Part shown: positions 25,483 to 29,804 of the stretch, piece after piece | Position numbering within the stretch: position 1 is the first letter of the stretch | How the letters are laid out: each line of letters starts with the position of its first letter | Origin: Acidimicrobiia bacterium | GTDB lineage: Bacteria; Actinomycetota; Acidimicrobiia; Spongiisociales; UBA5794 | Direction: 5' to 3' | Assembly (NCBI GenBank): GCA_036396535.1 | Contig: DASWKR010000012.1 | Location: forward strand, 1-35,111 | DNA: 35,111 nucleotides | Program-made: the position numbers and the translations under genes | Notes under the pieces: model-generated | What the model saw: only the letters and a program-made list of their open reading frames with translations | Databases searched by the model: none | What the model was told of the DNA's origin: nothing

Positions 25483-26268
25483 TCATGCCGAAGCGCCGCT
25501 GTAGTAGCGAAGACCGACCCTCCAGACGATCCGGGTCACGATGAGCAACGCCGCCGTGAACGACGATGCGAGCACGAACGTGCCGGGGGTGAGCCTGCTG
25601 GTCAGCGACTCGGCCGGGACCGTGATCGCGAAGGCGAGCGGTACCAGGAAGGTCAGGCTCGTCCGCAGCCAGAACGGATAGATGGCGACCGGCCAGCGAC
25701 CCGCCTGGTACACGCCTTGGAACAGCTCGAGGATGTTCTCGACACGAACGAGGCGGAAGGCGGTGGTGGTCAGGATCAGCCAGAAGCAGTAGATCATGAT
25801 GGCGCCGAGGAGCAAGGCGGCCGCGAAACCGGCGGCATCGATCCAGCCGACGCTGCGCTCGAGGTTGACGACTGCCACCCCGAGCACGATGGCACCGACG
25901 ACGACGTCGACGAAGCTCCAGATCCGCACTTCCCTCATGGACACGAGCGCCTGGGAATCCGCCGGCTTCGTCAAGACGTAGTCGAGTGTCCCCCTCCGCA
26001 CGTCGTCCATGAGCTTCGCCATGTTCGGCTCGATCACCATCTGGATCACGCCTCCCATGGCGATGTGCACTCCCATCACGGCGAGCAGCTCAGGGGCTCC
26101 CCACCCGACCAGGTCGTCCGTCTGGCTGAACACGAGCCACAGCCCGACCAGGCCGGTGGCCACCGCCAGCGCCGATTGGAAGACCTGGACGACGAGGTTC
26201 ACCCGATACTGGAGCTCGTTCATCGCTCCGATCCTGAAATGAGCCCACGCCAGGCGAAACAGGCTCAC
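25483..26268 (-). CDS. ABC-2 type exporter permease (second permease)
   Basis: This is a protein of about 261 residues with six predicted membrane segments and the look of the ABC-2 permease group PF06182. It has ELQYRVNLVVQVFQSALA near the start, then EPNMAKLMDDVRRGTLDYVL and KPADSQALVSMRE, the coupling-helix region typical of this group. GTG 26268 lies 1 nt after the preceding permease stop; TTG 26280 is an alternative that would overlap it. With the ATPase and the other permease it forms one exporter. The substrate is unknown. The one-ATPase-two-permease layout is like the viologen-exporter (VepABC) type and several antibiotic exporters. Confidence 0.85.
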   Translation of the reverse strand: MSLFRLAWAHFRIGAMNELQYRVNLVVQVFQSALAVATGLVGLWLVFSQTDDLVGWGAPELLAVMGVHIAMGGVIQMVIEPNMAKLMDDVRRGTLDYVLTKPADSQALVSMREVRIWSFVDVVVGAIVLGVAVVNLERSVGWIDAAGFAAALLLGAIMIYCFWLILTTTAFRLVRVENILELFQGVYQAGRWPVAIYPFWLRTSLTFLVPLAFAITVPAESLTSRLTPGTFVLASSFTAALLIVTRIVWRVGLRYYSGASA

Positions 26269-26269
26269 G

Positions 26270-27073
26270 TCAGCCCCCAACCGCCGCGAAACGCCGCGTC
26301 CCTCGACGCCACAGCACTGCGGTCACGCCGATGGCGACGCACGTCCACAGCGCCTGCATGCCGATCCCGAGCCAGATCTCCGCGGTGGAGCGCCTCCCGA
26401 TGAGGGTCTCGATCGGGAACTGGAACGCCCACTGGAACGGCAGGAAGTCTGCCAGTGTCTGCACCCAGGTCGGCATCAGCGAAAGGGGCACGAGCCGCCC
26501 GGAGAGGAGCAGCTCCGCCGTGAAGTAGAGCTCGAAGAGTGCAGAGACCCGCGTCGTCCACAGCGTCACGAGGCCGAGGGCCCACAGGGCGAAGAAGCGC
26601 ACGAAGAAGCCACCCCACAGCGCCACGGCGAAGAGGCCGATCTCGGCGGCAGACGGGTCGAGGCTCGGGCGGAAGATCCAAGTGAGCACCGCTGCGATCG
26701 GGAGCCACATCACGATGACGACGAGCTTCCAGCCGCCGAAGTACGCCAGGTCGCGGTGCACCGGGTGCACCGGTCGCAGCAGGTCCGTGACGAGCTCGCC
26801 CTCCTTGATGCGCTGCTCCCAGGCGTACGGCGTGAGGACGATGTTCATGTTGCGGACGAGCGTCCAGACGATGTAGTAGGCCGCCAGGTCGCCGGCCGTG
26901 AACCCACCGACAGCGCCGCCCCGCTGCTCGGCGACCGTCGACCAGACGACCAGGTAGATGACGGGCTCGGCAACCATGCCGATCATGTAGAAGTAGTTGG
27001 CGACCCGATACTGGAACTGTTCCAGGATCGCCACTCGCGCCCAGCCGGCATACATGCGGGTGTAGGCGATCAT
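26270..27073 (-). CDS. ABC-2 type exporter permease (first permease)
   Basis: The 267-residue protein has six predicted membrane segments. It shares with its neighbour the N-terminal pattern LEQFQYRVANYFYMIGMVAE and the segment RIKEGELVTDLLRPVHPVH, where the neighbour has RRGTLDYVLTKPADSQ, so the two permeases look like a paralogous pair forming a heterodimer. ATG 27073 overlaps the ATPase stop by 4 nt (ATGA). A longer open reading upstream to 27724 overlaps the ATPase and is not real. Confidence 0.85.
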   Translation of the reverse strand: MIAYTRMYAGWARVAILEQFQYRVANYFYMIGMVAEPVIYLVVWSTVAEQRGGAVGGFTAGDLAAYYIVWTLVRNMNIVLTPYAWEQRIKEGELVTDLLRPVHPVHRDLAYFGGWKLVVIVMWLPIAAVLTWIFRPSLDPSAAEIGLFAVALWGGFFVRFFALWALGLVTLWTTRVSALFELYFTAELLLSGRLVPLSLMPTWVQTLADFLPFQWAFQFPIETLIGRRSTAEIWLGIGMQALWTCVAIGVTAVLWRRGTRRFAAVGG

Positions 27074-28053
27074 GCCCAGTCGTCGCCGGGCTCCTCGAAG
27101 ACGCGCTCGATCACGTCCTCGATCGGCGGGTCTTCGATCGTCAGATCCGACACCTCGAAGTCGCGCAGCAGCCTGGCGGCGAGACCGGAAGTCTCCGCCC
27201 GCGACACCTCGAATGTCACCTTGTCCGTCTCGCGTGCGATCACCGGTCCGTACGGAGACAGGTCGGCAGGAGGCGCAGCCATGGTCACCGTGATCTTCTT
27301 GCTCGATGCGAAGCGGGCCGCCAGCCCGCCAAGCCCTCCGTCGTACAGCAGCCTCCCGTGGTGGATGACGATGACCCGCTTGGCGAGCGCCACGACGTCT
27401 GCCATGTAGTGGCTCGTCAACATCACAGTCGCCCCGTACCGTCTGCTGTACTCGGCGACGAACTCGCGCAGCTTGCGCTGCGCGGTCACGTCGAGGCCCA
27501 TCGTGGGCTCGTCGAGGAACAGCACGTCCGGCCGGTGGAGCAACGCCCCGGCGATCTCCACCTTCATGCGCTCGCCGAGCGACAGGTTGCGGACGGGCTT
27601 GTCGACGAGCGTTTCGAGGCCGAGCAGCTCGACGTACTCGTCCCGGGCTTCGACGAACGACTCGGGCTCGAGGCGGTAGATCGACTTGTTCAGCTCGAAC
27701 GAGTCGAGCGCCGGGAGATCCCACGACAGTTGATTGCGGTTGCCCATCACGAGAGTGATGCGGCTGAGGAACTCGCGACGCCGATGCGACGGCGTGTGTC
27801 CGAGGACCTCGACGACCCCCGCATCCGGGTGGAGCAGTCCCGAGAGCATCTTGAGCGTGGTCGTCTTGCCTGCGCCGTTCGGCCCGAGGAACCCGACGAC
27901 TTCGCCGGGCTCGATGTCGAACGAGATGTCATCGACGGCGACCACGTCCCGGAAGCGGCGTTTCACGAGACTTCTCACCGAGGCGCGCAACCCCGCTTGG
28001 CGTACCGGGACGCGGTACAGCTTCGTCAGACCGTCGACGTGGATGGCGGGCAC
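27070..28053 (-). CDS. ABC exporter ATP-binding protein
   Basis: The 327-residue protein has one nucleotide-binding domain with Walker A GPNGAGKTTTLKML, Q-loop region MGNRNQLSWDLPA, signature LSLGERMKVEIAGALL, Walker B DVLFLDEPTMGLD and H-loop MLTSHYMADV. About 90 further residues after the core end in IERVFEEPGDDW, the regulatory tail seen in this exporter group. The start is GTG 28053. It is the first gene of the three-gene operon and is preceded by a structured leader with an intrinsic terminator 63 nt upstream (see 28115-28151). Confidence 0.93.
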   Translation of the reverse strand: MPAIHVDGLTKLYRVPVRQAGLRASVRSLVKRRFRDVVAVDDISFDIEPGEVVGFLGPNGAGKTTTLKMLSGLLHPDAGVVEVLGHTPSHRRREFLSRITLVMGNRNQLSWDLPALDSFELNKSIYRLEPESFVEARDEYVELLGLETLVDKPVRNLSLGERMKVEIAGALLHRPDVLFLDEPTMGLDVTAQRKLREFVAEYSRRYGATVMLTSHYMADVVALAKRVIVIHHGRLLYDGGLGGLAARFASSKKITVTMAAPPADLSPYGPVIARETDKVTFEVSRAETSGLAARLLRDFEVSDLTIEDPPIEDVIERVFEEPGDDWA

Positions 28054-28114
28054 GGCGGGACACTACCGGTGGCGGCCGCCACGCAATCGCACCGGCGATG
28101 CGCCCCCGGGAGGG

Positions 28115-28151
28115 GAAAAACAACCCGGGAGGTCGGAACCCCCCGGGTTGT
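28115..28151 (-). terminator. Intrinsic terminator or attenuator in the ABC-operon leader
   Basis: On the minus strand the stem ACAACCCGGG (28151-28142) pairs with CCCGGGTTGT (28129-28120), with three more pairs inside, and is followed at once by a T-run (TTTTT at 28120-28116, then CCCC). This is a textbook Rho-independent terminator on the coding strand of the ABC operon, about 63 nt before its GTG. It therefore either ends a separate upstream transcript or controls read-through into the operon. Confidence 0.8.
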
Positions 28152-28290
28152 GAGCGCTGATCCCCGGGGACGCACGGGGAACAGCGCGGATGTGTCGATC
28201 CATTGTGATGTTACATCCACGCCGTTGAATCAGAAATGAATCCGTTTCGGAGAGGTGTGACCCGGGAGTCCCCCAACTCCCGGGTGACAC
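28152..28290 (-). ncRNA. Chain of hairpins: putative riboswitch-like leader or small RNA
   Basis: Upstream of the terminator on the minus strand are three further inverted repeats. GTG..ACCCGGGAGT pairs with ACTCCCGGG..CAC around 28254-28290. GGATGT and ACATCC flank a 19-nt loop at about 28188-28218. GCGCTG.TCCCC pairs with GGGGA.CAGCGC at 28154-28187 with one A-A mismatch. Together with the terminator this makes about 170 nt of compact structure with no coding potential I trust. I could not match it to a known riboswitch, tmRNA, RNase P or SRP RNA. The direction is inferred from the T-run. Confidence 0.4.
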
Positions 28291-28437
28291 GCACCCCCAG
28301 TTTCCCCCTGCTTGCCCGTCACCGGGAGACCTGCTGGCCCGCCGTCTGCTGGCGTGCGCATCGACGCCGAACTTGCCATTCGAGCGTCGCTTCGCAGGGT
28401 TACTCTACGACCACTCTCAGTGTTCTCACCAGGCACA

Positions 28438-28465
28438 TTGACAACGAGCGCGAGAGAACTAGTCC
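28438..28465 (+). promoter_or_regulatory. Candidate promoter for the amidohydrolase
   Basis: A perfect -35 TTGACA (28438-28443) is followed after 16 nt by TAGTCC (28460-28465), a weak -10. It is 106 nt before the amidohydrolase ATG. A strong hairpin (CCCGAC-CGACC...GGTCG-GC-GTCGGG, 28525-28550) lies between the promoter and the start and could affect translation. Confidence 0.35.
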
Positions 28466-28571
28466 GCCACGGGCCACCTCCCGGGCAACGTTCGGCCATG
28501 GGTGCCGCCGGGTGCCGGAGGCTGCCCGACCGACCTCGGTCGGCGTCGGGGACCAGCTACTCTTGGTGGTC

Positions 28572-29804
28572 ATGCCCACGAGAATCGACGCCGACCTTCT
28601 CATCCCCGGGGTGGGCGAGCCGGTCAACGACGGCGCTGTCGTGTTCGAGAGCGGAACGATCACCTATGCCGGGGCGGCCGCCGGGGCGACGTCGGCGGCG
28701 ACGACGAAGGTGGCGACGCTCATGCCCGGACTGTGGGATTGCCATGGCCACTTCACCGGCATGGCCATCGGGAATCTCGAGCACGACGCTACCGAGCCGA
28801 TCGCCCGCAAGGCCGCCAGGGCGGTCGGCGACATCGGCCGCACGCTGATGGGTGGGGTGACCTCGATCCGTGAGGTCGGCGGACTCGGCATCGAGCTCCG
28901 CCACGTAGTCGACGAGGGTTCCATCGCCGGCCCGTCCATCTATCCGGCAGGCAGGATCCTGTCGACGACCGGGGGGCACGCCGACGTGCACAGTCTGCCG
29001 ATCGACTGGGTCGACGGCTCGCCGGGAAGGCTCGGGCTCAACTGCGACGGCGTCGCCGACTGCCTCAAGGCGGTTCGGCTTCAGCTCAGACAAGGCGCAT
29101 CGGTCATCAAGGTGTGCGCCTCGGGGGGCGTGATGAGCGAGATCGACCATCCGATCCACCAGCAGTTCTCCGACGAAGAGCTCGAGGCCATCGTCGACGA
29201 GGCGGCCCGGGCGGACCGAGCGGTCGCCGCCCACTGCCATGGCAAACCGGGCATCATGGCGGCGCTGCGCGCCGGAGCGCGGACGATCGAACACGGCAGC
29301 TACCTCGACGACGAGGCCGCCGCCACGATGGTCGAGGCGGACGCCATCCTCGTCCCGACGCGATACATCCTCGCCGAGCTGCTCGACCGCCAAGGCGACA
29401 TCCCGGCGTACGCCTACCGCAAGGCGCTCATGGTCGCCGAGCACCACGAGATGGCGCTGAAGACGGCGATCGCGGCAGGTGTGCGAATCGCGATGGGGAC
29501 CGACATCTTCATGAGCGGGGAGGGCCATGGCACGAACGGGCGTGAGATCCGGCTCCTCGTGGAGGCGGGAATGACGCCGCTCGAAGCCATCGAGGCCGCC
29601 ACGGCCAATGGACCACTCACCCTCGGTCCGCAGGCACCAGCCTCGGGCCGGCTCGTGGAGGGCTACGACGCAGACCTCATCGCCCTCGACTTCGACCCTC
29701 TCGACGACCCGGCCCAATGGGGGGATCCCGACCGGGTGACGCATGTGTGGAAGGCAGGCGAGGCCGTCAAGTCACCCGAGCACACGACTCGAGATCGGCC
29801 CTGA
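28572..29804 (+). CDS. Metal-dependent amidohydrolase (imidazolonepropionase/prolidase-like)
   Basis: The 410-residue protein belongs to the amidohydrolase superfamily (PF01979). The metal and catalytic residues are in order: HxH in LWDCHGHF, the bridging Lys in SVIKVCASGG, His in VAAHCHGKPG, His in RTIEHGSYLDD, and Asp in IAMGTDIF. The C-terminal beta part (SGRLVEGYDADLIALDFDP) closes the composite domain. It resembles the Xaa-Pro dipeptidase / imidazolonepropionase-like group of cytoplasmic enzymes, but the substrate cannot be read from sequence. ATG 28572 gives a normal N-terminus; only a weak TGGTGG ribosome site precedes it. It stands alone, converging on clpX with 22 nt between. Confidence 0.9.
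   Translation: MPTRIDADLLIPGVGEPVNDGAVVFESGTITYAGAAAGATSAATTKVATLMPGLWDCHGHFTGMAIGNLEHDATEPIARKAARAVGDIGRTLMGGVTSIREVGGLGIELRHVVDEGSIAGPSIYPAGRILSTTGGHADVHSLPIDWVDGSPGRLGLNCDGVADCLKAVRLQLRQGASVIKVCASGGVMSEIDHPIHQQFSDEELEAIVDEAARADRAVAAHCHGKPGIMAALRAGARTIEHGSYLDDEAAATMVEADAILVPTRYILAELLDRQGDIPAYAYRKALMVAEHHEMALKTAIAAGVRIAMGTDIFMSGEGHGTNGREIRLLVEAGMTPLEAIEAATANGPLTLGPQAPASGRLVEGYDADLIALDFDPLDDPAQWGDPDRVTHVWKAGEAVKSPEHTTRDRP

Follow-up and report, generated by a model that had tools for sequence, protein, structure and literature searches.

The 518-nt gap at 28054–28571 of the window (the whole stretch of DNA analysed, 35,111 nt of contig DASWKR010000012.1 in the Acidimicrobiia bacterium assembly GCA_036396535.1) is likely to encode, on the minus strand, a small regulatory RNA as a stand-alone gene with a predicted promoter and terminator of its own. 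Judging from its sequence, the gene probably adds a new family to an already known kind of RNA, the regulated, trans-acting sRNAs. The computed support consists of sequence conservation, the fixed spacing of the promoter elements, covariation in the terminator and the re-use of the same promoter before leaderless genes. The gap has the extent given in the initial annotation and lies between divergent flanks, an ABC operon on the minus strand, whose ATPase gene begins with a GTG at 28053, and an amidohydrolase gene on the plus strand, which begins with an ATG at 28572. The initial annotation had set the boundaries of the element at 28152–28571; the gene instead occupies about 28465 to about 28116 on the minus strand (Table 1).

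Table 1. Predicted features of the small RNA gene and its surroundings in the window
Feature	Positions	Strand	Basis
Upstream promoter box 2, GGACTAGT (family consensus GGTGACTAGTCACC, palindromic)	28458..28465	-	Near-invariant ACTAGT, 30 aligned copies
Upstream promoter box 1, TGTGCCT (consensus TTTGTGTCT)	28431..28437	-	Near-invariant columns, fixed spacing, many genera
-10 element TAGAGT (TAnnnT)	28402..28407	-	Fixed offset from box 1
Predicted small RNA, about 280 nt	28116..28395	-	Start inferred from -10, end from terminator and T run
5' hairpin CGACGCuCGAA..UUCGgGCGUCG near RNA start	28362..28389	-	Minimum-energy fold
Conserved core CGGTGACGGGCAAGCAGGGGGAAACTGGGGGT (consensus CGGTTCGGGCAAGCAGGGGGAA)	28293..28324	-	Aligned in 10 loci
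H1 hairpin (of the initial annotation)	28255..28290	-	Inverted repeat; equivalent GC-rich hairpin after core in several genera
Two mutually exclusive hairpins	28154..28226	-	Inverted repeats; not alignable to relatives
Intrinsic terminator H2, 14-bp stem then TTTTT	28116..28151	-	Inverted repeat; equivalent hairpin covaries in 20 sequences
Putative own -10 of ABC operon, TAGTGT	28060..28065	-	Read from sequence; 6 nt before GTG at 28053

A stack of hairpins upstream of a terminator, one of them interrupted by a symmetric A-A mismatch, had been described in this gap, and our search for inverted repeats shows that these hairpins are real. The repeats lie at 28255–28269/28276–28290 (15 nt, 93%), at 28180–28193/28213–28226 (14 nt, 86%) and at 28154–28166/28175–28187 (13 nt, 92%), the last containing the single symmetric A-A mismatch, and the terminator stem at 28120–28133/28138–28151 is followed by a T run on the minus strand, which is the direction of the terminator. 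Because positions 28180–28187 are common to the 28154–28187 and 28180–28226 repeats, these two hairpins are mutually exclusive. The gap folds far more stably than dinucleotide shuffles: the z-score is -6.8 for the minus and -4.5 for the plus strand, and none of the 200 shuffles was as good on either strand. Among the three hairpins described upstream of the terminator, H1 is conserved in kind among relatives, as is the terminator, whereas the two within 28154–28226 had no recognisable counterpart in relatives among the searched genomes, which held no second genome of the genus; they may be lineage-specific.

A blastn-type search of 99 related genomes gave short matches, many of which fell on one same stretch, and when read out these matches represent one conserved element located between valS on the minus strand and usually the amidohydrolase gene on the plus strand. 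A neighbour-blind pattern search, together with inspection upstream of valS, yielded 30 aligned copies from many genera of the same family; these relatives are mostly uncultured metagenome-assembled genomes (MAGs) and are not mutually independent. Within the Acidimicrobiia, the element occurs in one family and in a single genus of another family. The exact core is found in Acidimicrobiia contigs, the titles of the matching contigs are mostly of this class, and no DNA matches were found in plasmids. Exact pattern matches in three further genomes (G051, G093 and G109) were set aside because the surrounding features of the other members are missing there. The element lies directly upstream of valS, on the same strand, in about 30 of the family's genomes. 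An ABC-2 transporter operon (25483–28053) intervenes between the sRNA gene and valS in the window, an arrangement without parallel among the relatives that were read.

The promoter is composed of two boxes, GTGACTAGTC and TTGTGTCT, 19–20 nt apart, and a -10 box TAnnnT; reading toward valS, it has the form GGTGACTAGTC, 19–20 variable bases, TTTGTGTCT and TAnnnT. The distance between the boxes is 20 nt in the window and 19 or 20 nt in relatives. TAnnnT is located exactly 29 nt from box 1 in 25 of the 30 copies and 30 nt from it in the window, and at no other offset between 20 and 44. The full pattern has 24 exact matches in 23 of the 395 genomes of the class (reversed control, 0), and all of these 23 genomes belong to the element's own family or to one genus of the second family. 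When two mismatches were allowed, the patterns gave 27 and 17 matches versus 1 and 0 for the controls, a few of the matches being expected by chance. The copy in the window has diverged: its two boxes hold 3 mismatches, its spacer measures 18 rather than 17 and its GGTTCGGGC is altered, and it could be a weakened one. We read the promoter as a SigA-type one, and the two upstream boxes are probably the sites of a transcription activator. The RNA start is placed 6–7 nt after the -10 box, where the ATG stands in leaderless genes behind the same promoter. Just 5' of this start, the minus strand reads ATG TGC CTG GTG AGA ACA CTG AGA GTG GTC GTA GAG TAA; a leader peptide with valine codons was rejected because several relatives have no Val run and because these bases form the promoter. 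Likewise, an RNA or promoter on the plus strand was rejected, since no fitting -10 was seen there by eye, whereas on the minus strand TAnnnT recurs at a single offset. On the plus-strand side, three loci (L060, L065 and L066) carry further inverted repeats, CGTTTGTGCCTA..TAGACAC..ACG, before the amidohydrolase gene, and these resemble box 1 in both orientations.

The main rival explanation is that the RNA is a cis-acting leader or attenuator of valS (of an ABC-valS operon in the window), which would sense a signal and gate passage through the terminator. We consider this unlikely, even though its location before valS, the terminator at its end and, in the window, the pair of mutually exclusive hairpins that immediately precedes this terminator are all consistent with such a role. 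Between the last hairpin and valS, a second TAnnnT is present in 25 of the 27 relatives (8.9 expected by composition), so the RNA appears to form a transcript of its own. The putative -10 box of the ABC operon in the window has the same spacing to its GTG as found in the leaderless genes with the two-box promoter. Moreover, in two genomes of another family, f4, the promoter precedes an RNA of roughly 85–120 nt that ends in a terminator, and no valS was seen at these sites; these RNAs lack the GGTTCGGGC core. Taken together, the downstream TAnnnT and the f4 units make a stand-alone sRNA more likely than a leader. Furthermore, no conserved antiterminator was found at the locus. T-box leaders (RF00230) similarly combine a structured RNA and a terminator before a tRNA synthetase gene; the element differs from them in that the T-box model has no match in the window gap and in that valS would have a separate promoter after the terminator, and we do not favour this assignment. 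A terminator before a synthetase gene thus need not imply a riboswitch. The initial annotation had proposed a riboswitch or a small RNA of a class it could not name. The small RNA part agrees with the conserved promoter and core, the covarying terminator and the lack of an Rfam family, while the riboswitch part is disfavoured by the separate TAnnnT and by the f4 sites; as far as can be told, the element is not a riboswitch. Elsewhere, sub-threshold T-box matches occur at G000:C6:21091-21148 and in 38 other genomes of the family, usually one per genome, which suggests that a diverged T-box exists in this lineage, all of these matches being below the Rfam gathering score.

The predicted RNA is shorter in relatives, at about 80–232 nt. 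Many members have a 5' hairpin, most have the core CGGTTCGGGCAAGCAGGGGGAA or one of its variants, some have H1, and all end in a GC-rich hairpin; apart from these parts and the promoter, the RNAs differ greatly in length and sequence. By inspection, 5' hairpins of differing sequence occur in several other genera, with covariation judged by eye, and MAFFT could not align them across genera. The core consensus GGTTCGGGC is partly changed to GGTGACGGGC in the window. A comparison of homologous gaps, suggested in the initial annotation, shows that the terminator hairpin covaries in relatives: among 20 sequences, 94% are paired versus 80% after shuffling (0 of the 500 shuffles reached this level), both sides have changed in 8 of the 10 pairs, double-change cells number 27 versus 7.4 in shuffles, and the pairing is destroyed when the partners are slid. 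A second alternative is that the DNA sites alone matter, the region being a regulatory region of divergent genes and the hairpins an ordinary terminator plus chance GC-rich repeats. The promoter boxes are indeed the strongest conservation, and the hairpins between core and terminator vary between lineages. However, the core (also given as GGTTCGGGCAAGCAGGGGGAA and GGGCAAGCAGGGGGAA) lies within the transcript, past the promoter, and is kept across genera. In 24 members the whole RNAs fold better than shuffles, whereas the promoter stretches mostly do not; in short members, folding without the terminator hairpin is no better than in shuffles. We thus regard an explanation by DNA sites as improbable. 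It is more improbable still that the locus is a short gene for a small protein: the same promoter does drive leaderless and small-protein genes elsewhere and short frames cross the core in some copies, but these frames differ between members, are absent in many, and include no single shared ORF.

The stand-alone sRNA was also compared with known families. At the gathering cut-off, Rfam 15 gave no match in the window gap or at the elements of 10 related loci, in line with the earlier impression of a class without a name, and permissive Rfam searches gave chance-level matches only. 6S RNA (RF00013) is likewise a short structured noncoding RNA; it was rejected, as its covariance model has no match in the element's own genome, and many members differ from it in being only 80–90 nt long and not forming one long bulged hairpin. 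As the review PMC8628891 describes them, actinobacterial sRNAs (mycobacterial ones) are similarly intergenic and short, with their own promoter and a GC-rich terminator hairpin; compared with them, the sequence and structure here match no Rfam family. As in bacterial intergenic sRNAs, a promoter and an intrinsic terminator of its own can both be recognised, here by sequence alone.

It is also evident that the same promoter is re-used at other genes. In G034, G025 and G021 (L109, L110 and L144), genes for signal-peptide proteins have it exactly 6 nt ahead of their ATG; these genes are leaderless and encode similar, DUF11-like proteins, one secreted protein resembling DUF11 with a score below the Pfam cut-off. 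Similarly, it is present before three similar small proteins of 54–66 aa in G005, G011 and G017 (L136, L139 and L142), which end near RIRxMxYG or a variant and for which Pfam has no family. An ATG shortly after TAnnnT is a leaderless arrangement known from actinobacteria, and in PMC3898074, on Mycobacterium tuberculosis, TAnnnT likewise lies a few nucleotides before the start of leaderless genes; relative to the promoters described there, the one here additionally has two upstream boxes at fixed spacing. The re-use before leaderless genes provides an independent line of evidence that the boxes serve as a promoter and mark a regulon. The two-box promoter probably marks a small undescribed regulon, to which the leaderless L109, L110 and L144 genes and the sRNA would probably belong together. 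A fuller picture, which we offer tentatively, is a new sRNA family in an undescribed regulon of one Acidimicrobiia lineage, in which a single activator at GTGACTAGTC..TTGTGTCT would switch on the sRNA, the secreted DUF11-like proteins and the 54–66 aa proteins in a surface or stress response.

According to the mechanism we propose, a SigA-type promoter (a TAnnnT -10 with two activator boxes) would start the RNA near 28395. In order, the RNA would contain the 5' hairpin, the G-rich core GGTTCGGGC..AGCAGGGGGAA and then one GC-rich hairpin or two; the final hairpin would end it as the intrinsic terminator at 28120–28151. The ABC operon in the window, or valS in relatives, would then start from its own promoter after the terminator. 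Transcription, binding of the activator at the boxes and pairing of the core with target mRNAs in trans are the steps that we infer. In a broad, non-exhaustive literature search we found no report of regulatory RNAs in Acidimicrobiia, and GTGACTAGTCAC is not mentioned in the literature searched; little on such RNAs seems to be on record. With its promoter, core and terminator defined, the sRNA family is open to testing, and its promoter motif is specific enough for tracing the regulon through genomes. In another part of the window, at 712–1743, overlapping frames are present on both strands with a repeated CLPLCGGPASGRPATRAEG-like motif, and this region looks like repetitive noncoding DNA.
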